In this document: piece after piece, positions 95 through 64,000 of the stretch
Numbering within the stretch: the stretch's first letter is position 1
Layout of the letters: every line of letters begins with the position of its first letter
From: Elusimicrobiota bacterium
Lineage (GTDB): Bacteria; Elusimicrobiota; Elusimicrobia; UBA1565; UBA9628
DNA length: 64,000 nt
Assembly (NCBI GenBank): GCA_016209035.1
Contig: JACQWX010000074.1
Location: forward strand, 1 to 64,000
Direction of reading: 5' to 3'
The notes under the pieces: generated by a model
What the model was told of the DNA's origin: nothing
Databases searched by the model: none
What the model saw: only the letters and a program-made list of their open reading frames with translations
Made by a program: the position numbers and the translations under genes

Positions 95-255
95 TCACGC
101 AAGAACCCGCTGCGAATTCATCGCCGGGGGTACTAGTTCCCCGTTTTGCCCCCAGGGTATTTCTCCAACGATCCGTTGGAGATTTGAAACCTGTTCGGTC
201 CAGGCCAAGTAAAAGGCGCGCATGTACCAGACATTCTGCCGCGAGATCATCTCGC
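95..255 (-). pseudogene. Remnant of DUF1016 (YhcG-type) N-terminal domain
   Basis: Minus-strand reading gives ...ISRQNVWYMRAFYLAWTEQVSNLQRIVGEIPWGQNGELVPP..., typical of the DUF1016 N-terminal domain (SxRNxWxMRaFyxAW...IPWGHN); only ~55 aa and then a stop. Confidence 0.6.
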
Positions 256-1710
256 TGTTGACCTCGACCGCGCCGCGGACCGGGGGAGCCAGTCCGAGGC
301 GATGCGGTCCGCCATCCACAGGTCGAAGGCCGTCTTGACCCGGATGGACTCCTCGGGCAGCATCAGGATGTGGCCGACCCTCCTGCCCACGAAGTTCCGG
401 CGGTCGATGGCGCGGGTCCTGGTGAGGAGGACGGCGCCGTTCTCCTTGAAGATGGCCTTCTTCTCGATCTGGAGGTCGCGGGAGCGTCGGATGGGGGTCA
501 GGCCCCCGGCCCCGTGGTGGTAGCAGTAGGCCAGCTCCTCCGTCACCGAGACCACGCTGTCCACGTCGAAGATGGTCAGGGTGTCCACGGCCATGTCGAT
601 GTGCAGGGCCCTGCGCAGGGGCGAGTTGAGGTAGAGCAGCATGACGGCCTCGGGCCGGTAGCGGCGCTTGGCCAAGAGTTCTTTGAGGGTGTAGATCACG
701 GTTGGAGCGATGTGCGAGCCCGCCCCGGCCAGCCGGCTGGGCCGCTCGATGACGGCAGCCTTGCGCCAAGCCGGAGCCCGGCAGTACCGCACGACCTCGG
801 GGTCGTCCGTCGCGACCGCGACGCGGTCGAGCGTCCGAGCCTTCAGGGCCTGGGTCAGGGCGTGCCACAGGAGGGGCTTGCCCGCCACCAGGGAGAAGGC
901 GTGATCCGGCGTGCCCGGGGGGCGCTTCGCGGCCGGGATGATGGCGAGGACCTTGGGCGCCGCGCCGTCCTTGTGGCGGCGGACGAAGCCGCGGTTGATG
1001 GCGGCCCGGGTCTCAAGGATGCGGCGGCCGTCCCTGGTGAGGCTGCCCTCGTGTTGAGTGTAATAGAAGAGCGGGACGTTGACGTTGTACGGCTTGAAGG
1101 TCCGAAGGAACCTCAGCCAAAGGTCGTAGCCGTCCTGGCAGGAGAACTCCTCGGAATAGCCGCCGAGTTCCAACAGGCACTCCTTGCGGATCATGGTGCA
1201 GGCGCCGTGCGCCGGGAGGTCGAGCAGCTTGGCCTCGGAGCCGATCTTCTTGCGTCGCACGAATTCGAGGACCTCGCCCTGGTCGTCGACCAGGTAGTAG
1301 TCCGGATAGACCAGCCCGACATCGGGCTTGGTGGTCAGGACCTGCGCCATCACCAGGAGGGCGTTCTCGTCGAGGAAATCGTCCGCGTCCAGCCGCATGA
1401 CATATGGCGTGTTGGCCAGGCGCAGGGCGATGTTGTTGGAAACATTCAACCCCTTTTTCGTCTGGTGCAGGACGCGGACTTTGGGGTGGTCCTCGTAGCG
1501 TTTGAGGATGTCCGCCGTGTCGTCCGTGGAGCCGTCGTCGATGACGATGAGCTCCCAATCCTTCATGGTCTGGCGGAACACGCTCTTGATGGCGCGCTCG
1601 ACGAAGCGGCCGTAGTTGTGGGTGGGGATGTAGACCGTGACCAGGGGCGGCCGGAGGGATTCCTCGTCCGGCAGTCCCGATCCCTGCCGCCGCGGACTGG
1701 CGTCCTTCAT
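247..1710 (-). CDS. Fusion: family 2 glycosyltransferase + acylneuraminate cytidylyltransferase (NeuA)-like domain
   Basis: N-term VTVYIPTHNYGRFVERAIKSVFRQT..VIDDGSTDDT..LDADDF (GT2); C-term VLAIIPAAKRPP..GKPLLWHALTQAL..DRVAVATDDPEVVRYC..LLYLNSPLRR..DSVVSVTEE (NeuA-like). ATG at 1710 has a GGAGG upstream; the 1755 start in the ORF track is less likely. Confidence 0.85.
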   Translation of the reverse strand: MKDASPRRQGSGLPDEESLRPPLVTVYIPTHNYGRFVERAIKSVFRQTMKDWELIVIDDGSTDDTADILKRYEDHPKVRVLHQTKKGLNVSNNIALRLANTPYVMRLDADDFLDENALLVMAQVLTTKPDVGLVYPDYYLVDDQGEVLEFVRRKKIGSEAKLLDLPAHGACTMIRKECLLELGGYSEEFSCQDGYDLWLRFLRTFKPYNVNVPLFYYTQHEGSLTRDGRRILETRAAINRGFVRRHKDGAAPKVLAIIPAAKRPPGTPDHAFSLVAGKPLLWHALTQALKARTLDRVAVATDDPEVVRYCRAPAWRKAAVIERPSRLAGAGSHIAPTVIYTLKELLAKRRYRPEAVMLLYLNSPLRRALHIDMAVDTLTIFDVDSVVSVTEELAYCYHHGAGGLTPIRRSRDLQIEKKAIFKENGAVLLTRTRAIDRRNFVGRRVGHILMLPEESIRVKTAFDLWMADRIASDWLPRSAARSRSTAR

Positions 1711-1801
1711 GTGCCTCCAATCAAAGTCGGACCGGCAATCCCCATCATAGAACATTATGGCGGCCGTTCGGAAGGCAAGGTATTGAAATCTCGCCGGCTT
1801 G

Positions 1802-2132: not shown

Positions 2133-2435
2133 ATGCCCCGCTATTCGATCGGATTCCCCAGCGGGTCCGTCGAGAAACACTTCCTGAAAGAACTTTCGAA
2201 ACTGGACAAAACCGATATGGCGCGGATCAGGCGTGCTATCGAGTCTCTGGCTGACAATCCGCGCCCGCAAGGCGATAGAGTGAAGCCACTGCGTCCGCCG
2301 CTATCGATCTATTCGTTGGTGGCCACGCACCGCCTGCGCGTGGGTGATTATCGGATACTCTACGACATAGACGACGGTTCGAGGAGAGTCGTGCTCCTGT
2401 CCGTCAGGCGGCGTTCCGAGAAGACGTATCGTTAG
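2133..2435 (+). CDS. RelE/ParE-family toxin
   Basis: SVEKHFLKELSKLDKTDMARIRRAIESLADNPRPQGDRVKPL...HRLRVGDYRILYDIDDGSRRVVLLSVRRRSEKTYR, typical RelE fold signature. Confidence 0.85.
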   Translation: MPRYSIGFPSGSVEKHFLKELSKLDKTDMARIRRAIESLADNPRPQGDRVKPLRPPLSIYSLVATHRLRVGDYRILYDIDDGSRRVVLLSVRRRSEKTYR

Positions 2436-3312
2436 CCCTTCCCAGCAGCCTGCGGAGCTCCCGGCAGCTCCGGATCACGGCCCGGGTGGTGGCGAGGTCC
2501 ACGGTCTGGACCGCGTCGCTGATGGAGCGGGAGGGCCGGGGGTGCGATTCGATCATGAGCCCGTCGGCGCCCGCGGCCGTGGCCGCCAGGGACATGGCCG
2601 GCACGAACGGGGCGTATCCGGTCGAGTGGCTGGGGTCAAAGAAGACCGGGATGCGGGTGAGGCGCTTCAAGGCCGGGATCATCATCAGGTCCGGCGCCCA
2701 GCGGACGGAGGGGAAGACGTGGCGGTAGGAGGGCATGCCGACCACCCCGCGCAGGCAGACGACCAGGTCCCGGTTGCCGCCGTGCATGACGCGCTCGCAG
2801 ACCCCGAGGATCTCATCGATGGTGCCCCAGCTGCCGCGCTTGAGCAGGACGGGCTTGCCCTGCCGGCCCACGGCGTCGAGCAGGCCGTAGTTCTGGAAAT
2901 TGCGCATGCCGATTTGAAGGAAGTCCGTGTGCCGGCAGACCAGCGGCAGGTGCCGCACGTCGAGCACCTCGGTGATCACCTTCAGGCCCGAGGCCTCGCG
3001 CGCCTCGGCCAGGAGCTCGAGGCCTCGCTCTCCCAGGCCTTCCCGCCAACCGTAGGCCTGCTTGGTCTTGATGGGGAAGGTGCAGGGCTTGTAGGCGCCG
3101 CCGCGCAGGAGGTCCGCGCCCGCGTCGCGGAGCTTCTTGGCGTAGTCCACGATCTGGCGTTTCGTCTCGACGGAGCATGGGCCGGCGATGACGACGAAGT
3201 CGCGGCCGAAGGCCTTGCCGTTCACCTTCAGGCGCGGCCGGTATCCCGGGTCGACCGAGTGAAGGAGCTTGCCCTGGCTCTTGAGGGATTCGATGAACTC
3301 GTTAGCGGCCAT
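2404..3312 (-). CDS. 3-deoxy-7-phosphoheptulonate (DAHP) synthase-like / PEP-condensing aldolase
   Basis: FVVIAGPCSVET..LRGGAYKPCTFP..LKVITEVLD..LQIGMRNFQNYGLL..KPVLLKRGSWGTIDE..DPSHSTGY..GADGLMIESHPRPSRSISDAVQ, type I DAHP synthase signature. Confidence 0.8.
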   Translation of the reverse strand: MAANEFIESLKSQGKLLHSVDPGYRPRLKVNGKAFGRDFVVIAGPCSVETKRQIVDYAKKLRDAGADLLRGGAYKPCTFPIKTKQAYGWREGLGERGLELLAEAREASGLKVITEVLDVRHLPLVCRHTDFLQIGMRNFQNYGLLDAVGRQGKPVLLKRGSWGTIDEILGVCERVMHGGNRDLVVCLRGVVGMPSYRHVFPSVRWAPDLMMIPALKRLTRIPVFFDPSHSTGYAPFVPAMSLAATAAGADGLMIESHPRPSRSISDAVQTVDLATTRAVIRSCRELRRLLGRANDTSSRNAA

Positions 3313-4759
3313 CCTTCCTCCTGGCTGCGCTTGCGCCTTTCCGTTCCCTGGGTTGTCCAGGTCCTTCAGAGGTTCGTTCTCCCTGCTCGGTCGCTCCGAA
3401 CGCGGCCGCGCCGCGCTCGAGCGCGGCCGAGATGACCGCCCTGCTGAACGCGTCCCCTTCCCGGAGACGGATGGAGTAGAGGGCCGATCCCAAGGGCACC
3501 AGGGCGACCTCGTCTCCGATGAGCTGGCCGCGGCGGATGAACTCGGAGCTCGTCACGCATCCCAACCCGATGATGCCCTTGTGGAGGGGGGCCTTGAACT
3601 GCCGCGGGAGCAGCCCTTCGTCGCAGCGCACGATTTTGCCCTGGGCCTCGGTCCAGAACGGCTGGAAGTCCTTGAGCGTCGGGACCAGGGTGTCCACCCC
3701 GGTCCGGGCGAACTCGTCGACCATGGCGTCGAAGAAGCCCTGAGGCCGGAAGGGGTAGAGATAGTTGACGTAGACCACCGAGTCGAAGAAGACGTCGCCC
3801 TCCTCGCAGCTCTCCAGGGCGTAGCGCAGGACTTCCTCGGTGCCGGTGCGAGGTGCGGCAAGCTTCGCCGGCCTGGGGACGGCCAGCGCCCCCGACCGGC
3901 GCGCGAGCTTCAGCGCTTCCGGGGTCTCGCTGATGACCGCCGCCTTGGCGATGAACCGGGCCTGCCGGACCTGGCCCAAGGCGAGCTCCAGGAGATCGCG
4001 TCCGGCGATCTTCTGCACCGCGCCTTGGACCGGGAGGATGGCGAGCGTCCTCATGGTCTCCGGAAGGAAGCCCTCCGGCAGGGCCGGGTGGCCGTTGGGG
4101 CTCTCCAGGGACTCCATGACCCGCACCACCGAGCTCGCCCGGTGTTCGTCCAAGGCCTGGTGGATGCCGTGGTAGTGGTAGACCGCCGCCTCGGGCTCGT
4201 AGGCCAGGTGGTATCCCTTCTTGATGACGGCTTCGCCCCAGATGCGGTCCTCGATGTTGGGGGCGGTTTCGTCGAAGGGCACCTCCTCCCACACGCTGCG
4301 GCGGATCAGGCTGTTGGCGTTATGGAAGAACCCGTCCTTGACCTGCACGCGGCGATCCAAGCCGAAGGTGATGAGGAGGTCGCGCTTGTCCACGTCGGAG
4401 CTGTAGGACATGGGGAGCTGCCTCCCGTAGACGCCCGCGACCGCCGGGTCCTCCATGTTCTTGAGCAGGGTCTCGAGCCAGGACGCGTCCTTGGGGATGC
4501 AGTGGGCGGAAAGGCAGGCGACGAAGCGGCCCGAGGAGGCCCGGATGCCAGCGTTGAGGGCGGTTCCTGGGCGATAGCCCTCTATTCGCACAGTCTTGAC
4601 CGGGAATTTGCCCGCGATGGCCAGGGTATGGTCCGTGCTCCCGCTGTCCACCAGGACGACCTCGAAATCCTTCATCCCTTGCTGGAAGACCATGCGCAGG
4701 CAGCGCCCGATCCAGCGCTCCTCGTTCTTCGCGCGGATGATGATGGAGACAGTCGGCAT
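3302..4759 (-). CDS. Fusion: family 2 glycosyltransferase + degenerate NeuA-like cytidylyltransferase domain
   Basis: N-term MPTVSIIIRAKNEERWIGRCLRMVFQQ..VLVDSGSTDHT (GT2); C-term RTLAILPVQGAVQKIAGRDLLELALGQVRQARFIAKAAVISETPEALKLARRSG..VVYVNYLYPFRP has NeuA-like spacing without the RxGSK motif. Confidence 0.7.
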   Translation of the reverse strand: MPTVSIIIRAKNEERWIGRCLRMVFQQGMKDFEVVLVDSGSTDHTLAIAGKFPVKTVRIEGYRPGTALNAGIRASSGRFVACLSAHCIPKDASWLETLLKNMEDPAVAGVYGRQLPMSYSSDVDKRDLLITFGLDRRVQVKDGFFHNANSLIRRSVWEEVPFDETAPNIEDRIWGEAVIKKGYHLAYEPEAAVYHYHGIHQALDEHRASSVVRVMESLESPNGHPALPEGFLPETMRTLAILPVQGAVQKIAGRDLLELALGQVRQARFIAKAAVISETPEALKLARRSGALAVPRPAKLAAPRTGTEEVLRYALESCEEGDVFFDSVVYVNYLYPFRPQGFFDAMVDEFARTGVDTLVPTLKDFQPFWTEAQGKIVRCDEGLLPRQFKAPLHKGIIGLGCVTSSEFIRRGQLIGDEVALVPLGSALYSIRLREGDAFSRAVISAALERGAAAFGATEQGERTSEGPGQPRERKGASAARRKDGR

Positions 4760-5007: not shown

Positions 5008-6993
5008 ATGACGAAGATAGCCCCCGGCATCGGCTTGCGAACGGGGCTGGCGGTTTTCGTCGTCGTCAAATGCCTTTTCGTCCTGCTCTTCACGAAAGCA
5101 TCGGCAGTCCCGCGTCTCGGGGATGATTCTTTCGTCTACCTCTGGCAGGGTCAGCTCATGGTGTCCTCCATCGAGAAGACCTCCCCGGCGGTCAAGGACA
5201 TCAAGGAGCTTTGGGCTCTCGACGATCGTCCGTCGCTGCCGACGAGCATCTTCCGCGCGTATACGCAGATGCAGGTTTCCACGCTGTATCCGTTTTCCGC
5301 CCACTCCCTGCTGACGGGAGGGCTGCTGGCCCTGGGGATCCCGGCCCGATGGGCCTTCTGCGCCACGGAGATTATCATCGCCATCCTTCTCGCGGTCGGC
5401 ATCGCCGCATTCTTGAAGGAGCTGTTCGGCGAGGGGGCTGCGGGTTTCGCGTTGGCGCTTCTGAGCGTCTCGGTCTTTCCTCTCCACGGCCTGCAGCAAC
5501 TCGTCCCCAGCGTCATGTGCCTGGCGCTGGCGCTCATCCTCTGGGCGCGGATACTGGCGAACGCGAATCCCTGGCCCGGTCCCTTCCTCCTGGCCTTGGC
5601 CCTGGCGGGGATACATCAGATCGCCAAGGCCTATCTTGTGGGCGCGTTGGCGCTGGCCGTCGTGGCGGCCCTGGCGGCGAGAGACTGGTCCTCCCGCAGA
5701 TGGTGCATGATCGGCGGGATGGTCTTGGCCCTCGCCTCGGCCTTCATCTTGGCGCGCCCCATGCTGCCCTATCATCCCCCGGGCACGGTCGCATGGGACG
5801 TTGGGACCGTGACCCTGGCTAACGCCAGGATCAACTGGCCCGCGGCGAGAGGCTTCCTTTTGGAATACGCGGGGAACAATCTCCTGACCCTGGGTCTCTG
5901 TTGCGGCGGGGTGGTCTTCTTCGGCCGGTGCCACCTGACGCGGCTGGGCGGATCCGTCCTTGTCCTGTGCTCCGCCATGCTTGCCGGGTCGCTGCTGCAT
6001 CTTATTCCCCATTTTGAGGCAGACCTCTTCTGCCGTCTCCTGGTGCCCTGCGTGATCCTGGTGGCTGGGTGTGCCGGACTCTTCTGCGCGCGGCTGGTGG
6101 CTGGGAGACCTCCAGCGGCCGGATGGGCGTTGGTGGCACTCTTCTGCCTGTCCATCTGCCATGGCATCCAGCGGTACGCCGCATATTGCTACGTCCAGCT
6201 CAACAAGCATTCGGCCATCGAAACCCGGGCTTTGCACGCGCAAATCCAGGATATCCCGGACGGGACCAGCATGCTCTATCTTGATCATCCGTCGGTCATG
6301 ATCGCCTGCCTGCTGGAAGGAGCTTGGCGCCTTCCAGCGATGTCCTGGGCTATGATCAAGGGATCTGGAAGCCAGGAGAAATACCTGTCGGGCCATCCTC
6401 CAGGCATGGTGGTGGCGTATCCATATCGGTGGCTCAACACCCTTGCGCTATTGGGCGACCAGACCCTTACCCGGCGGCGCCACGGGTTCCGGCTCAAGGA
6501 TTTCGCCGGTCTCTCAGTGGAGGGGCAAGGGCTTTCGGGGAAGATGCTGGCCATCTTTGTGAAGAACGACGGGCCTGGATTCGCCATCGAGGTCGACGGG
6601 GCCGCTGACTGCGGTCCGCTTCAAGTGCCCACCCATCATGCGGGATGGCTCTCCATTCCACCTGCCTGTTCCGCCGGGAAACGGGTCAGCTTCAGCCTTC
6701 CCGACCACCCAGCCTGGGTGGCGGGAGTCTCTCTGGGCCCCCCGCGCAGCCGCGTCTATTGGCCTTGGTCCCAGGAACGGACGGTCGTCGAAGCCCGCTT
6801 CAGGCGTCCGCTGGGGATGCAGCGCTCGGAGCCGGGCTGCGAGATCGCTCCGGAGCGACTGTCGTTCGATTTTTCATTCGCCTCGCTGCTGTCCTATGAC
6901 GGAGCCTCGGGAGCGGCGGCCCTGCTGCTGCGGCCCTTGGAGGTCGTCTCGGACGAAAGCGGCCTGGTCTTCATCAGGAATGCACGCTCATGA
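5008..6993 (+). CDS. Large multi-pass membrane protein, probable GT-C type glycosyltransferase (paralog of 50416..52425)
   Basis: Repeated hydrophobic segments; MTKIAPGIGLRTGLAVFVVVKCLFVLLFTKASAVPRLGDDSFVYLWQG aligns to MTIRPPSIGLWSGVAVFLSLKGLFLLAFTFASGAPRLGDDALIYLWQG. Confidence 0.7.
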   Translation: MTKIAPGIGLRTGLAVFVVVKCLFVLLFTKASAVPRLGDDSFVYLWQGQLMVSSIEKTSPAVKDIKELWALDDRPSLPTSIFRAYTQMQVSTLYPFSAHSLLTGGLLALGIPARWAFCATEIIIAILLAVGIAAFLKELFGEGAAGFALALLSVSVFPLHGLQQLVPSVMCLALALILWARILANANPWPGPFLLALALAGIHQIAKAYLVGALALAVVAALAARDWSSRRWCMIGGMVLALASAFILARPMLPYHPPGTVAWDVGTVTLANARINWPAARGFLLEYAGNNLLTLGLCCGGVVFFGRCHLTRLGGSVLVLCSAMLAGSLLHLIPHFEADLFCRLLVPCVILVAGCAGLFCARLVAGRPPAAGWALVALFCLSICHGIQRYAAYCYVQLNKHSAIETRALHAQIQDIPDGTSMLYLDHPSVMIACLLEGAWRLPAMSWAMIKGSGSQEKYLSGHPPGMVVAYPYRWLNTLALLGDQTLTRRRHGFRLKDFAGLSVEGQGLSGKMLAIFVKNDGPGFAIEVDGAADCGPLQVPTHHAGWLSIPPACSAGKRVSFSLPDHPAWVAGVSLGPPRSRVYWPWSQERTVVEARFRRPLGMQRSEPGCEIAPERLSFDFSFASLLSYDGASGAAALLLRPLEVVSDESGLVFIRNARS

Positions 6994-7931
6994 GCCTCGA
7001 ACCTCAGGAGGTTTCGATCGTCGTCCCCGTGTTCAACGGGGAACGTTCCTTGCCGGAGCTCGTGCGTCGGCTGGAGTCCGTCCTGACCGACCGCTGGCTG
7101 GGCTTCGAGGTGATCCTGGTCAACGACGGGAGCAGAGACGGGAGCTGGGACGTCATCTGCGGTTTGGCCAAGACCAGGGCCTGGCTGCGCGGGATGGACA
7201 TGATGCGCAACTACGGCCAGCACAGCGCCGTGCTGTGCGGGACCCGGGCGGCGCGGTACAGCGTCATCGTGACGATGGATGACGACCTGCAGCATCCTCC
7301 GGAGGAGATTCCGAAGCTGCTGGAGGAACTCTCCCGGGGCTTCGACATCGTCTATGGGACCCCGGAGCGGGAGGAACACGAGTTTTGGAGACGATGGGCC
7401 TCCCGGTTGACCAAGATGGCGCTCACCCATTTCCTGGGAGCCAGGACGGCGCGGCATGTGAGCGCCTTCAGGGCCTTGCGCTCCGAATTGAGGGAGGTCT
7501 TCGATCACTACAACGGCCCGTTCGTATCGTTCGATGTCCTCCTCTCCTGGGCGACGGACCGGTTCTCGGCCGTGTTCGTCAGGCATGAGACCAGGCGCGG
7601 GAGCGAATCGAACTACTCGGTCGGAAGGCTCGTCGTTCACGCCATCGACATGGTGACCGGGTTCAGCAGCTGGCCTCTGCGGGGGGCCAGTCTCCTGGGG
7701 TTCGGATTCACGATCCTTGGGGGGGGACTCCTGGTCTACGTCGTCGGCCGGCGCCTCCTGATGGGCGCGGCGGTGCAGGGGTTCGCCTTCCTGGCGTCGG
7801 CCATCAGTCTGTTCGCCGGGGTGCAGTTGTTCTCCCTCGGCGTCCTCGGGGAATATGTGGCTCGCTTGCACGCCCGCGGGATGGGGCGTCCGCCCTACGC
7901 GGTGCGCAGGACGGTGCAGGCGGATCGATGA
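6990..7931 (+). CDS. Membrane-anchored family 2 glycosyltransferase (ArnC/GtrB/DPM1-like)
   Basis: VSIVVPVFNGERSLPELVRRL..VILVNDGSRDGSW..MRNYGQHSAVLCGTRAA..MDDDLQHPPEEIPKL plus two C-terminal TM segments. Confidence 0.85.
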   Translation: MSLEPQEVSIVVPVFNGERSLPELVRRLESVLTDRWLGFEVILVNDGSRDGSWDVICGLAKTRAWLRGMDMMRNYGQHSAVLCGTRAARYSVIVTMDDDLQHPPEEIPKLLEELSRGFDIVYGTPEREEHEFWRRWASRLTKMALTHFLGARTARHVSAFRALRSELREVFDHYNGPFVSFDVLLSWATDRFSAVFVRHETRRGSESNYSVGRLVVHAIDMVTGFSSWPLRGASLLGFGFTILGGGLLVYVVGRRLLMGAAVQGFAFLASAISLFAGVQLFSLGVLGEYVARLHARGMGRPPYAVRRTVQADR

Positions 7932-9088
7932 CCGGGCGTTCCCCCGATCGGAGTCTCCGCGTCCCGTTCAACAAGCCCTCGTTCGCGGGCAAAGAGCTTC
8001 AGTACATCGAGGATGCGGTGCGCTCAGGCCATATCTCGGGGGATGGGAAATACACGGAGCGGTGCCAGGCTGTCCTGGAGGCCTGGTACCAGGGGTCCAA
8101 GGTGCTCTTGACGACCTCCTGCACCGACGCCTTGGAGATGGCGGCGCTCCTTCTGGACCTGCGCCCCGGCGACGAGATCATCGTGCCCTCCTTCACCTTC
8201 GTCTCCACGGTCAACGCGTTCGTCTTGTCCGGCGCCCGGCCGCGGTTTGTCGACATCAGGCCGGACACGCTCAATTTGGACGAGGGCCAGGTCGAGCGGC
8301 ACCTGACGTCCCGCACGAAGGCCATCGTCCCCGTCCATTACGCCGGCGTCGGCTGCGCGATGGACCGCATCATGGAGACGGCGCGACGGCATGGGATCGC
8401 GGTCGTCGAGGACAACGCGCACGGGCTTTTCGGGATTTGCGCGGGGAAGCCGTTGGGCATGTTCGGCGCGCTCGCGGCGTTGAGCTTCCACGAGACCAAG
8501 AACGTCATCTGCGGCGAGGGAGGGGCGATCGTCATCAACGACCGCCGTCTCGTCGAGCGAGCCGAGGTCGTGCGGGCGAAGGGGACCAACCGGTCCCGGT
8601 TCGACCGGGGCGAAGTGGCGAAGTATGAGTGGATCGACAGCGGCTCCAGTTTTCTCCCGTCAGACATCCTGGCGGCGTTCCTGTTGGCGCAACTGGAGGC
8701 CAAAGACCGTATCCAAGCCAAGCGAAGAGGGCTTTGGGATGCCTACCGCAGGAGCCTCGCGGGTTGGGCCCAGGAGCATGGGGTCGGCCTGCCGACGGTG
8801 CCGGAGCAGTGCGAGCAGGCCTATCACATGTTCTATCTACTGCTCCCTTCCCCGGCGCATCGGGACGGGTTGAAGGCCTACCTCGGGTCCCGCGGCTGTC
8901 TCAGCGTCTTCCACTACTCGCCTCTGCACGTTTCGCCGATGGGGCGGCAGTTCGGCGGCAGGGAAGGGGATTGCCCCGTCGCGGAGGACGTCAGCCGGCG
9001 CCTGCTCCGGCTGCCTTTCTACACGGGGATGACCGACGAGGAGCAGGCGGTCGTCCTCGATGCGGTCCTGGAGTACGCCTGGGGTTAG
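7928..9088 (+). CDS. wecE: dTDP-4-amino-4,6-dideoxyhexose transaminase (WecE/RffA type, DegT family)
   Basis: VPFNKPSFAGKELQYIEDAVRSGHISGDGKYTERCQ..LLTTSCTDALEMAALLL..PSFTFVSTVNAFVL..FHETKNVICGEGGA..AKGTNRSRFDRGEVAKYEWIDSGSSFLPSD, close to WecE. Confidence 0.85.
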   Translation: MTGRSPDRSLRVPFNKPSFAGKELQYIEDAVRSGHISGDGKYTERCQAVLEAWYQGSKVLLTTSCTDALEMAALLLDLRPGDEIIVPSFTFVSTVNAFVLSGARPRFVDIRPDTLNLDEGQVERHLTSRTKAIVPVHYAGVGCAMDRIMETARRHGIAVVEDNAHGLFGICAGKPLGMFGALAALSFHETKNVICGEGGAIVINDRRLVERAEVVRAKGTNRSRFDRGEVAKYEWIDSGSSFLPSDILAAFLLAQLEAKDRIQAKRRGLWDAYRRSLAGWAQEHGVGLPTVPEQCEQAYHMFYLLLPSPAHRDGLKAYLGSRGCLSVFHYSPLHVSPMGRQFGGREGDCPVAEDVSRRLLRLPFYTGMTDEEQAVVLDAVLEYAWG

Positions 9089-54510: not shown

Positions 54511-55320
54511 ATGAGAAAGGCCTCGAGCGTCGACCCGCGCCGCGTCCGAGAGCTCGTCCTGGAGCGGTCCTGGAAGGCCCATGTCGGGCACATCGGCTGC
54601 TCCCTGTCCGTGGCGGATATCCTGGCCGCGCTCTATTCGGGCGTCCTGCGCGTGCCCCGCCCGAAGGATCCCGACCGGGACCGCTTCATCCTGTCCAAGG
54701 GGCATGCGGCGCTCGCGCTCTACGCCGTCTTCCACCTCAAGGGGTGGATATCCAGGAAGACCCTCGATTCCTACTGCCGGGACGGGAGTCTGCTCGGGGT
54801 GCATCCCGAGCGGGCGCTGGCGGGCGTGGATTTCTCGACGGGGTCGTTGGGGCAGGGCCTGTCCTACGGGGCCGGCGCGGCCTTGGCCGCGAGGCTCCAG
54901 CGTTCCGGGAGGCGGGCCTATGTGCTGCTCAGCGACGCGGAATGCGACGAGGGGGCCGTCTGGGAGACTGCCATGTTCGCGGCGCACCACCGGCTCGCGA
55001 ATCTCGTGGCCATCGTAGATCTCAACGGGCAGCAGGCCATGGGCTACACGAAGGACGTCCTCGACCTCTCCCCGCTGGCCCAGCGATGGCGGGCCTTCGG
55101 CTGGGAGGCGGTGGAGGTCGACGGGCATGATGCGCCGCGCCTGACGAGGGCGCTGGCCCGCCTTGACACCCGTTCCGGGCCGCCTCACGTCCTTATCGCC
55201 CGCACCGTGTTCGGCAAGGGCGTGCCCTACATGGAAGGCCAGATCAAGTGGCATTATTGGCCCATGTCGGAGGATGAGTACGAGGAGGCTCTGCGGGCCG
55301 TCAGGAGCGGGGGGGCATGA
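54511..55320 (+). CDS. Transketolase, N-terminal (TPP-binding) subunit
   Basis: GHIGCSLSVADILAALYSGVLRVPRPKDPDRDRFILSKGHAALALYAVFHLKGW..TGSLGQGLSYGAGAALAARL..LLSDAECDEGAVWETAMFAAHHRLANLVAIVDLNGQQAMG. Confidence 0.9.
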   Translation: MRKASSVDPRRVRELVLERSWKAHVGHIGCSLSVADILAALYSGVLRVPRPKDPDRDRFILSKGHAALALYAVFHLKGWISRKTLDSYCRDGSLLGVHPERALAGVDFSTGSLGQGLSYGAGAALAARLQRSGRRAYVLLSDAECDEGAVWETAMFAAHHRLANLVAIVDLNGQQAMGYTKDVLDLSPLAQRWRAFGWEAVEVDGHDAPRLTRALARLDTRSGPPHVLIARTVFGKGVPYMEGQIKWHYWPMSEDEYEEALRAVRSGGA

Positions 55321-56279
55321 GGAAAGCCTTCGTTCAGGCTCTCGTCGAGCTGGCCTTGGCGGAACGGCATCCGCGCATCCTGCTGTTGACGGGGGACCTC
55401 GGCTACACGGTCCTCGAGCCCTTCGCGGAGACCTACCCGGACCGTTTCTTCAACGTCGGAGTCGCGGAGCAGAACCTGGTGGGCCTGGCGACCGGATTGG
55501 CGGAGGCCGGGTTCATCCCGTTCGTCTACTCCATCGCGACGTTCGCGTCCTTGCGTCCGTATGAGTTCATCCGGAACGGTCCCGTCCTGCACCGGCTCCC
55601 CGTCCGCGTCGTGGGCGTCGGAGAGGGCTTCGGCTACGGCTGCGCGGGTCCGACCCACCATGCCTTGGAGGACCTGGGCGTCACCAGGATCCAGCCCGGG
55701 CTGACCGTCATCGCTCCGGCGGACGCCCAGCAGGCGCGGGCCGCCATCCACGCGACGAAGGACCTTCCCGGACCGGTCTACTTCAGGCTCGGCAAGGACG
55801 AGAAGCCGCTCGTCCCAGGGCTGGAGGGGCGGTTCGAACTCGGCCGCGCGGTGTGCCTGCGGGAGGGGCAAGACCTCCTGCTGATCGCGGCGGGGTCCGT
55901 GGCCCGGGAGGTCGTGGCCGCCGCCGACATGCTCTCGGCCCGAGGGGTCCGCTCCAGCGTCCTGCTGGTCTCGACCTTGAACCCGCCCCCCGTGGAGGAT
56001 CTGAAGGCGGCGCTGGCGGGGCACCGCGTCGCGCTCACGGTCGAGGCGCACTATGTCGTCGGCGGCCTGGGGTCCCTCGTCTGCGAGGTCGCGGCGGAGA
56101 ACGGCCTGTCCTGCCGGGTCGTGCGGTGCGGCGTCTGGTCCGCTCCGGACGGGGCCAGCGGCAGCCAGGACTACTACTACCGCCGGCACGGGCTCTCCCG
56201 CGGAGCCATCATGGAGGCCGCGCTCCGGGAGCTGCGCAAGCCTTCCTCCGGGAGGGGGAAGCGGTTGGGCCGCCGCTGA
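55317..56279 (+). CDS. Transketolase, C-terminal (pyrimidine-binding) subunit
   Basis: LTGDLGYTVLEPFAETYPDRFFNVGVAEQNLVGLATGLAEAGFIPFVYSIATFASLRPYEFIRN; 4-bp overlap with the N-terminal subunit gene. Confidence 0.9.
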   Translation: MRKAFVQALVELALAERHPRILLLTGDLGYTVLEPFAETYPDRFFNVGVAEQNLVGLATGLAEAGFIPFVYSIATFASLRPYEFIRNGPVLHRLPVRVVGVGEGFGYGCAGPTHHALEDLGVTRIQPGLTVIAPADAQQARAAIHATKDLPGPVYFRLGKDEKPLVPGLEGRFELGRAVCLREGQDLLLIAAGSVAREVVAAADMLSARGVRSSVLLVSTLNPPPVEDLKAALAGHRVALTVEAHYVVGGLGSLVCEVAAENGLSCRVVRCGVWSAPDGASGSQDYYYRRHGLSRGAIMEAALRELRKPSSGRGKRLGRR

Positions 56280-61677: not shown

Positions 61678-63435
61678 CTACGGCCTCGACCGCGCCGAGG
61701 CGCTGAAGTGCTCGAAGAGCTTCTGGGCGGCGCGGCCGAAGCCCTTCCGCCTCCCGCCGTCCGTCATGCCGCCGAGGTGCGGCGTGATGAGGAGGTTGTC
61801 GTGGGTGCGGGCGTAGTCGAGGAGCCTGGCCTTGGAGCGCTTGACCTTGTCGGTCCACTCGCCCTCGATCTCGCCTTCCAGAACGTCCAGGCCCGCCCCC
61901 GCGATGGTCTTGGCTAAGAGGGCGTCCGCCAGGGCGTCCTGGTCGATGACGGCGCCTCGAGAGGTGTTGACCAGATAGGCGGTCGGCTTCATGGCACACA
62001 GCTGTTCTCGGCCGATCAGGCGCCGGGTCTCCTGGCTGAGGTGGACGTGCAGGGCCACGAAATCGGATTGGCGGAGCAGGTCCTTGAGGTCCTGGACCTG
62101 GATGATGCCGGGCTGGTTGACCGCGACATAGGGGTCGCAGACGAGTACGCGCATGTCGAACGCGATGCAGTAGCGGGCGAAGATGGAGCCGAGCCGGCCG
62201 AAGCCCACGATGCCCGCTGTCTTGCCGTTGAGTTCGAGGCCCAGGAACCGCGTGTAGTCCCACCCGCCTTCCAGGGCGTGGCGGAAGGCCGGCATGGTCT
62301 TGCGGGCGCAGCTGAGCATCAGGTTGAAGGCGTGCTCCGCGGTCGAGGTGATGGTCTTGAGGACATCGAGGTCCTTGGTGATGGAAAGGACTTCGATTCG
62401 GTTGCGGGCCGCGGCCGCCTTGTCGATGTGGTCCGTGCCGGTCGAGGCCGTGCAGACGACGCTCAGCCGCGACCCGGGGATGCGGCTGAGCACGACCTCG
62501 TCCACCATGAGCTGGGTCGAGACGAAGAGCGCGTCGTAGCGCCGGGCGCAGGACCTCAGCTCCGAAACGGTCATGTCGGGCCGGTAGTCCACGCGGCCGA
62601 TGAGCTTGAGGGTCTCGAGCACGTCCGGGACCCCATCGAGATTGGCCGTGGCCAAGACCTCGATGCCGGACGGCAGGGGCCGGCGAGGCTCCCGTGCCTG
62701 CGCGGCGCGCCGTTCGGCCTCTGCCAACCGGCGCTGCTCCATCAGCGCGCGGGCCAGCATCAGGTCCTGGGGTTCGTCGATGTTGACGACGCGCTCCGGG
62801 GGCATGATGTGGGGCCGGCTCACCTTGCCCCGGCGGTTGCGCTGGTTGATTATGGTGTCCCGCTTCAAGGCGTAGACCGAGCCGCAGCGGATGTAGGCCG
62901 GAGGCTTCAAGTCCTGGCGCAGGGATTCCAGGATCTCCGGTGACCCAGGCCAATCCTGGATCTCATCGTCCACGATCTGCTTGATGCGCTGGGGGTGGTG
63001 GTCCCAGAGCCGGGTCACGGCCACGACCGAGTCCGCGCCCGTGGCGTGGAGTTTCTCGATGCAGGCGTCGAGGTCCTCTACGGTCTTCAAGGGGTTGGTG
63101 CACATGAACTCGACGATGTAGTCGTAGACCACGCCGGAATGCTCCTCGTACTTGAGGGTCGACCATCGGTTCGACTCGGCCGCGGTCGTGGTCTTTTGGG
63201 AGAGTTCCGGGGCGCGCAGGAAGGGGACCTTGACCCCCGCCTCTTCCGCGATCTTGGCGTAGAGGGGCGAGTCGGTCGAGACGCAGATGGCGTCCGCGTA
63301 GCGGCTCTTCTTCGCCTCCGACACGGAGTACCAAAGGACAGGCCGTCCGCAGAGGTCGGCGATGTTCTTGTCTTTGACGCGCGTCGAGCCGGACCGCGCA
63401 AGGATCATGACGAGGACGCGCTTGTCGCCGATCAT
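61678..63435 (-). CDS. Fusion: NeuA-like cytidylyltransferase + D-isomer-specific 2-hydroxyacid dehydrogenase
   Basis: N-term VLVMILARSGSTRVKDKNIADLCGRPVLWYSVSEAKKSRYADAICVSTDSPLYAKIAEEAGVKVP..MCTNPLKTVEDLDA..DSVVAVTRL; C-term TASTGTDHIDKAAAARNRIEVLS..GKTAGIVGFGRLGSIFARYCIAFDMRVLVCDP..LVNTSRGAVIDQDALADALLAKTIAGAGLDVLEGE..LLITPHLGG. Confidence 0.9.
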   Translation of the reverse strand: MIGDKRVLVMILARSGSTRVKDKNIADLCGRPVLWYSVSEAKKSRYADAICVSTDSPLYAKIAEEAGVKVPFLRAPELSQKTTTAAESNRWSTLKYEEHSGVVYDYIVEFMCTNPLKTVEDLDACIEKLHATGADSVVAVTRLWDHHPQRIKQIVDDEIQDWPGSPEILESLRQDLKPPAYIRCGSVYALKRDTIINQRNRRGKVSRPHIMPPERVVNIDEPQDLMLARALMEQRRLAEAERRAAQAREPRRPLPSGIEVLATANLDGVPDVLETLKLIGRVDYRPDMTVSELRSCARRYDALFVSTQLMVDEVVLSRIPGSRLSVVCTASTGTDHIDKAAAARNRIEVLSITKDLDVLKTITSTAEHAFNLMLSCARKTMPAFRHALEGGWDYTRFLGLELNGKTAGIVGFGRLGSIFARYCIAFDMRVLVCDPYVAVNQPGIIQVQDLKDLLRQSDFVALHVHLSQETRRLIGREQLCAMKPTAYLVNTSRGAVIDQDALADALLAKTIAGAGLDVLEGEIEGEWTDKVKRSKARLLDYARTHDNLLITPHLGGMTDGGRRKGFGRAAQKLFEHFSASARSRP

Positions 63436-64000
63436 GGTTGCCGCCCGCGGCGCCGGCCCTCCGGCGACGCGATCGAGGCCGGAGGCCGAGCGTCCCCGGG
63501 AAGGCCTTTCTGAGGGCCGTTCAGCTTGAAGGGGTGGGGTAGGCCCACGGCCAGCGTCTTGCCCGTGGCCACGTCCCAGACGCGCACGCTCCTGTCCCAG
63601 CCGCCTGATATGGCCTTCTTCCCATCAAGAGAAAAGGCCACGGCTTTGACCGGTTCGGAGTGCCCCTTCCACACGCCCAGGCACTCGCCCGAGGCCGCTC
63701 GCCAGAGCCGCACCGTGCGGTCCTCGCCGGCCGACAAGGCCAGGCTCCCGTCCGAAGAGAAGGCCACCCCGTGGACGACTCCCTGGTGCCCGCGCCAGGA
63801 GGCAAGCTCCCGGCCGGTTGAGGCGTCCCAGAGCTTGATGAGCCCGTCCTCGCTGCTGGAGAGCACCGCGTCGCCTTGACTCCGAAAGGCGACGCCGGTG
63901 ACGGTCTTGGTATGTCCCCGGCACTCCGCCAAGACGCGTTCCGACCGGACGTCCCAGATCTTGACCGTCTTGTCCCAGCTGCCTGATACGGCACGCAAGC
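63432..64000 (-). CDS. WD40-repeat protein (C-terminal part, truncated by window edge)
   Basis: Repeated ..GHTKTVTGVAFRSQGDAVLSSSEDGLIKLWDASTGRELASWRGHQGVVHGVAFSSDGSLALSAGEDRTVRLWRAASGECLG.. Confidence 0.85.
   Translation of the reverse strand, partial: LRAVSGSWDKTVKIWDVRSERVLAECRGHTKTVTGVAFRSQGDAVLSSSEDGLIKLWDASTGRELASWRGHQGVVHGVAFSSDGSLALSAGEDRTVRLWRAASGECLGVWKGHSEPVKAVAFSLDGKKAISGGWDRSVRVWDVATGKTLAVGLPHPFKLNGPQKGLPGDARPPASIASPEGRRRGRQP

Follow-up and report, generated by a model that had tools for sequence, protein, structure and literature searches.

A cytidylyltransferase fused to a D-2-hydroxyacid dehydrogenase in an Elusimicrobiota genome, and its probable origin in a gene cassette of phages and bacteria

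Introduction

Why would a bacterium join a CMP-sugar acid synthetase-like enzyme to a D-2-hydroxyacid dehydrogenase in one polypeptide? The question arises at a gene in the 64,000-base stretch of DNA analysed here (the window), which is the first part of contig C62 (83,075 bases) of an Elusimicrobiota bacterium. An original prediction, made from the sequence alone, had overlooked a conserved cassette in which these two domains are usually encoded side by side as separate genes, and also EpaA, an already characterised fusion of CTP_transf_3 with a reductase (PMC12053666). Here, we trace the two halves of the fusion protein (P0001) to two subfamilies that elsewhere are encoded by neighbouring, often overlapping genes, and we weigh what pathway they might share.

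The fusion gene

The gene and its parts are as follows.

61678..63435, minus strand: fusion protein P0001, cytidylyltransferase plus D-2-hydroxyacid dehydrogenase, 585 aa (open reading frame and Pfam)
62728..63435, minus strand: CTP_transf_3 domain, residues 1-236 (Pfam, alignment, AF2 and PDB folds)
62665..62727, minus strand: linker, residues about 237-257 (LAEAERRAAQAREPRRPLPSG), in frame with both domains
61681..62664, minus strand: D-2-hydroxyacid dehydrogenase domain, residues 258-585 (Pfam, alignment, AF2 and PDB folds)

As originally predicted, both enzymes lie in one polypeptide, encoded by an unbroken 585-aa minus-strand open reading frame with an ATG start and zero internal stops, and all of the motifs quoted at the time are present (ARSGSTRVKDKN at residues 13-24, GFGRLG at 411-416, LVNTSRGAVID at 488-498, and ITPHLGG at 550-556). 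The G+C content at third codon positions stays at 0.85-1.0 over the entire reading frame, including the linker, and there is therefore no sign of the frameshift that the original prediction had named as its possible undoing; on this continuous coding signal, a frameshift or the joining of two genes was rejected as the source of P0001. The linker, of roughly 20 residues, is P0001's own. In most pairs elsewhere, the dehydrogenase gene either begins in another frame, 1-4 nt before the cytidylyltransferase gene ends, or is separated from it by stops, and thus loss of one stop alone would not suffice to fuse them.

Directly upstream of P0001, within a glycan cluster, a minus-strand open reading frame for a WD40-repeat propeller occupies 63432..64000 and runs on to contig position 64463. 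The stop of this frame and the start of P0001 overlap by 4 nt, and the two are therefore probably co-transcribed. A split transketolase, with its N- and C-terminal halves as two open reading frames (54511-56279), lies in the same glycan cluster and is a possible source of an unusual ketose.

No second fused protein was found in 44 family genomes or 341 phylum genomes, nor any fused architecture among the related loci fetched from species genomes, and no phage record covered 80% of the P0001 query. One plasmid locus that does cover more than 80% of P0001 (L058) proved to be three separate genes, in the order cytidylyltransferase, SIS isomerase, dehydrogenase. P0001 is thus the sole fused copy in the collections searched, and the idea of a common fused family was dropped. 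The Paenibacillus plasmid locus just mentioned (L058, 7995-12907) and a Leisingera plasmid (L059, 4502-9603) carry a related gene set, consisting of a cytidylyltransferase, SIS isomerase, D-2-hydroxyacid dehydrogenase, inositol-monophosphatase-like phosphatase and Gfo/Idh oxidoreductase, which perhaps represents a sister pathway. Apart from EpaA, we found nothing direct on either the architecture or the cassette in the full-text literature.

The two domains and their subfamilies

A domain search, as the original prediction had suggested, returned CTP_transf_3 and both 2-Hacid_dh domains above their curated cut-offs, and the catalytic residues are retained in the alignments of each half, in keeping with the earlier view that both look catalytic. 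The halves were modelled separately, because a joint alignment with single-domain proteins misplaced dehydrogenase N-termini onto the wrong half.

Residues 9-138 belong to Pfam CTP_transf_3 (PF02348; 74.1 bits versus a cut-off of 22.6) and carry its nucleotide-binding motif ARxxS...KN; all 17 aligned cytidylyltransferases share R14, S17, K23, N24, N218, D220 and D224. Where NeuA has LLQPTSPLRT, P0001 has EFMCTNPLKT and the cassette subfamily ELMCTNPLKT or, more generally, LM[CA]TNPxKT; likewise, the NeuA motif IDID is replaced by VNID in P0001 (NID in the subfamily), such that N218 stands at the first metal-binding Asp. These changes in substrate and metal motifs set the subfamily apart from NeuA, and a NeuA-type identity was rejected for P0001 because neither LQPTSPLRT nor IDID is matched. 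Identities as PseF or KdsB were likewise discarded, as P0001 scores 118.5 bits with the PseF model (TIGR03584; equivalog cut-off 205.7) and at best 39.8 bits with KdsB models (NCBIfam cut-offs of 193 bits or more). Since P0001 stays below the cut-off of every standard pseudaminic or Kdo cytidylyltransferase model, the non-standard CMP-activated sugar acid of the original prediction, here an ulosonic acid, survives as the best reading of the sequence. The AF2 model of this half has a mean pLDDT of 92, and its fold is best matched in the PDB by CMP-Neu5Ac and CMP-Pse synthetases (Foldseek 6ifd, 1eyr and 9ftb). In the tree, it falls inside the cassette clade and away from generic paralogues (support 99/94), and it scores 307 bits with a leave-one-out HMM from which P0001 was excluded, compared with at most 216 bits for generic cytidylyltransferase controls (on a profile that included P0001).

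The C-terminal half matches Pfam 2-Hacid_dh_C (PF02826) at residues 371-555 (164.3 bits versus a cut-off of 25.1) and 2-Hacid_dh (PF00389; 42.4 bits versus 24.6), which together span residues 271-555. With both domains, an Arg/Glu/His triad and GxGxxG, it belongs to the D-isomer-specific 2-hydroxyacid dehydrogenases; among 18 aligned dehydrogenases, R493 of the triad is invariant, while E522 and H553 are each found in at least 90%. D434, which follows strand beta-2, suggests a preference for NAD. A phosphoglycerate dehydrogenase identity was rejected on a score far under the TIGR01327 equivalog cut-off (191.6 bits versus 454), and the top PDB folds for the AF2 model (mean pLDDT 91) are the phosphoglycerate dehydrogenase 1wwk and D-lactate dehydrogenases. 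This half, too, lies within the cassette clade and away from generic paralogues (support 98/97), scoring 300 bits in the leave-one-out HMM (P0001 excluded) versus at most 217 bits for generic dehydrogenase controls on a profile including P0001. P0001 lacks the NPNK loop kept by most free-standing cassette dehydrogenases and, given this loss, may act on a different substrate.

A cassette of separate genes in phages and bacteria

The unfused relatives were searched for from either side of the pair. With the cytidylyltransferase pair alignment as the query, ten loci were retrieved from 84,980 species genomes, and in nine of them the match spans the domain; in six of these nine cellular loci, fetched with the cytidylyltransferase only, a dehydrogenase like the C-terminal half of P0001 lies within two genes. 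Viral contigs scanned with the dehydrogenase alone gave 30 loci, or 24 after copies more than 90% identical were dropped, and a cytidylyltransferase lies within two genes of the dehydrogenase in 21 of the 24. Most neighbouring pairs overlap or are a few bases apart. Among the controls, a cytidylyltransferase occurs within 1.5 kb in none of 38 generic dehydrogenase loci, and only a weak dehydrogenase match was seen in one of 29 generic cytidylyltransferase loci. Within six genes of the pair, 28 of 30 loci encode a PEP-condensing synthase, and 17 of 30 have a GT2 glycosyltransferase near the pair. The synthase takes one of two forms, a DAHP-synthase-like protein (PF00793) or a short NeuB of about 265 aa (PF03102). 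SDR-type and UDP-glucose-dehydrogenase-like genes are frequent near the cassette; however, no partner oxidoreductase common to all loci was found, and none of the recurrent members was recognised as an acyl-activating enzyme or acyltransferase.

Versions of the cassette are present in SAR11, gamma-proteobacterial and Bacteroidota genomes. In the viral loci (L093-L122; e.g., L096, 1376-4433), it is compact and runs from cytidylyltransferase through D-2-hydroxyacid dehydrogenase and NeuB or DAHP-synthase-like protein to GT2. The uncultivated phage contigs bearing it are 4-548 kb long, and several viral contigs encode a late sigma factor, homing and HNH endonucleases, and an exonuclease, phage-type genes that support a viral origin. 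The usual cassette cytidylyltransferase has 225-240 aa, but a shorter form (about 176-202 aa) stands beside the dehydrogenase in most of L103-L107, L109 and L111-L114, with L105 as an exception that has the long form. The shorter viral form is more divergent (47-70 bits). The synthase is DAHP-synthase-like in L104, L106, L107, L109 and L114. No PHROG family matched the cassette cytidylyltransferase or NeuB, and searches for either protein among isolated-phage records gave a single match, of the cytidylyltransferase to a sequence labelled Moritella viscosa.

In two SAR11 single-cell genomes (L066 and L067, both at 6929-7978), the place of the dehydrogenase is taken by an Ldh_2-family dehydrogenase of the malate/L-lactate type, assigned by Pfam in L066 and by sequence likeness in L067. 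This is an apparent non-orthologous replacement of the D-2-hydroxyacid dehydrogenase. In L062, another D-2-hydroxyacid dehydrogenase lies beside an enolase-superfamily enzyme. These other dehydrogenases suggest that the cassette needs a hydroxyacid redox step, whichever enzyme supplies it. An archaeal carrier was considered and set aside: L068, from a Candidatus Pacearchaeota MAG, has a dehydrogenase nearly identical to that of viral L115 and neighbours that match phage loci. Both L068 and L062 (from a Candidatus Pelagibacter MAG) are probably mis-binned phage contigs, judging by their genes, and were left out as proof of cellular spread.

Related genes in the window and genome

Three further genes of the window resemble parts of the cassette.

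2404..3312, minus strand: DAHP-synthase-like (PF00793) synthase P0004, 302 aa (identity to phage cassette synthases)
3302..4759, minus strand: GT2 glycosyltransferase with a C-terminal degenerate cytidylyltransferase-like domain (identity and profile comparison)
247..1755, minus strand: second GT2, fused to a divergent CTP_transf_3 domain, P0003 (domain and locus comparison)

P0004 is 53-56% identical to six phage-contig copies (named loci: L104, L106, L107, L109 and L114). It was considered as a NeuB, but its weak PF03102 match is really DAHP_synth_1. The genome has only P0004 and KdsA (contig C30) as PF00793 matches and lacks PF01474, and for this reason P0004 might double as the housekeeping DAHP synthase. 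The GT2 gene at 3302-4759 overlaps the synthase gene, and its product is 40-43% identical over its length to the cassette GT2s of L060, L061 and L064. Its C-terminal domain is related to cytidylyltransferases by profile comparison (probability 94, E 1e-7); the domain is without a nucleotide-binding motif, is conserved in the same three loci, and looks like a pseudoenzyme. P0003 is probably related as well, as a candidate member of the cassette.

Other relatives lie outside the window. Shortly downstream of it on the same contig, at C62:68444-69889 (L006, 8444-9889), a second cassette-type cytidylyltransferase and a SAM-dependent methyltransferase domain form one protein, a NeuA-methyltransferase fusion (P0002, 481 aa). 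On contig C115 of the same genome (L007, 4158-6636), another cassette-type dehydrogenase, in the clade of phage loci L117-L120, is close to a NeuB gene, and the small open reading frames between them look like a toxin-antitoxin pair.

Proposed function and alternatives

We propose, with a probability of about 0.6, that P0001 is a bifunctional enzyme that arose by fusion of neighbouring cassette genes and combines CMP-ulosonate activation with sugar-acid redox chemistry in one pathway. The fusion origin is supported by the placement of both halves within the cassette subfamilies, in trees as in leave-one-out profiles. In such a pathway, synthesis of a 3-deoxy-2-ulosonic acid would fall to a PEP-condensing synthase, either NeuB-like or of the DAHP-synthase-like kind encoded at 2404-3312; the N-terminal domain of P0001 would couple this 2-oxo acid to CTP to give a CMP-ulosonate; the C-terminal domain would use NAD(H) to interconvert the 2-oxo and 2-hydroxy forms of one of the pathway's sugar acids; and the GT2 (3302-4759) would transfer the residue onto a surface glycan. 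Fusion would keep the redox step beside the CMP-capture step. We infer the ulosonate substrate, the order of steps and the glycan destination, the transfer of an ulosonic acid to a glycan because the conserved neighbours are a PEP-condensing synthase and a GT2. The synthase and GT2 genes (2404-4759) share the window with P0001 but lie 57 kb away, and the joint action of the three proteins is therefore likewise something that we infer.

The chemistry limits what the dehydrogenase might do. NeuA/KdsB-type enzymes require the 2-oxo (hemiketal) form, the hydroxyl of which attacks CTP. Direct reduction of the ulosonate at C2 is therefore unlikely as the main path, as it would remove that hydroxyl and block activation. 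Together with the synthase and GT2 neighbours, this requirement also speaks against the reduced or polyol-acid product that the original prediction had offered as a second option. Since C2 reduction would block activation, our guess is that, ahead of CMP capture, the dehydrogenase oxidises a hydroxy-acid centre or otherwise tailors it by redox chemistry; alternatively, it may act on a side substrate.

Three other explanations should be weighed against a shared CMP-ulosonate pathway. The dehydrogenase, with another oxidoreductase, could epimerise or oxidise a carbon other than C2 of a completed ulosonic acid, which the cytidylyltransferase then activates. D-2-hydroxyacid dehydrogenases require a carboxylate adjacent to the hydroxyl, a requirement that is poorly suited to chain carbons such as C8, and the partner oxidoreductase is not a fixed one across the loci; we therefore consider this unlikely, in spite of the candidate SDR-type and UDP-glucose-dehydrogenase-like partners often found near the cassette and of the phage-borne precedent of EpaA, which works together with the SDR EpaB to make 8-epipseudaminic acid from pseudaminic acid (PMC12053666). 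Less probable still is that the dehydrogenase leaves the sugar untouched and makes a D-2-hydroxy acid of the D-glycerate or D-lactate type, attached as an acyl or ether substituent. The nearest solved relatives, which are phosphoglycerate, glyoxylate/hydroxypyruvate and D-lactate dehydrogenases, would suit such a role, but the cassette has no recognised recurrent enzyme for acyl activation or transfer, and fusion to a cytidylyltransferase would bring no obvious gain.

It is also conceivable that two separate genes were joined by an assembly or sequencing artefact, given that a single fused copy turned up across all searches and that the genome is fragmented into 136 contigs. This seems very improbable, as the coding signal continues without a frameshift across P0001's own linker, the fusion lies about 20 kb from the end of an 83 kb contig, and the same contig carries other CTP-domain fusions.

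Overall, the fusion serves as a Rosetta-stone link, supporting placement of the cassette cytidylyltransferase and dehydrogenase in the same pathway. More tentatively, and at slightly below even odds, we suggest that an undescribed CMP-ulosonic acid pathway, defined by a dedicated D-2-hydroxyacid dehydrogenase step, is common to marine phages and aquatic bacteria, that two of its steps are fused in the present genome, that its product belongs to none of the sialic, legionaminic, pseudaminic and Kdo families, and that phages may rewrite the host surface with it. If so, activated acidic sugars would gain a further class, P0001 would offer a single-polypeptide reagent with which to find the product, and the alteration of host surfaces by ocean phages would be partly explained.

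Comparison with known systems

By its logic, the nearest characterised protein is EpaA of Acinetobacter baumannii prophages, a 542-aa fusion of CTP_transf_3 with an aldo-keto reductase that, together with EpaB, acts on an ulosonic acid in vivo (PMC12053666). EpaA and P0001 are alike in layout, with an N-terminal CTP_transf_3 domain, a C-terminal redox domain and similar length, and EpaA is carried by phages, as are the cassette genes related to P0001. However, the redox domain of EpaA (PF00248) belongs to another superfamily than the D-2-hydroxyacid dehydrogenase of P0001, the C-terminus of which matches 2-Hacid_dh and gave no match to PF00248. In addition, no PEP-condensing synthase has been described with EpaA, the partner of which is EpaB. 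For SAR11 myophages, one study reports a hypervariable region with lipopolysaccharide genes and glycosyltransferases, and its main text mentions neither a cytidylyltransferase nor a hydroxyacid dehydrogenase (PMC7029224).

At the level of the single domains, the N-terminal half of P0001 finds its best full-length family resemblance in PseF and NeuA-type CMP-sialate synthetases, with which it has the fold and catalytic core in common, but it differs in its fusion to a dehydrogenase, in LM[CA]TNPxKT for LQPTSPLRT and in NID for DID. The C-terminal half has the two-domain fold, GxGxxG, Arg/Glu/His triad and Asp after beta-2 of D-3-phosphoglycerate, D-lactate and glyoxylate dehydrogenases, whereas it forms a separate STGTxHID clade, has no ACT domain and is fused to a cytidylyltransferase. 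Bcs1/TarIJ-type CDP-ribitol synthetases also join or pair a cytidylyltransferase with a reductase in the synthesis of cell-surface polymers; unlike P0001, they combine an IspD-like CDP-forming transferase with unrelated dehydrogenases and handle a polyol phosphate rather than a sugar acid.
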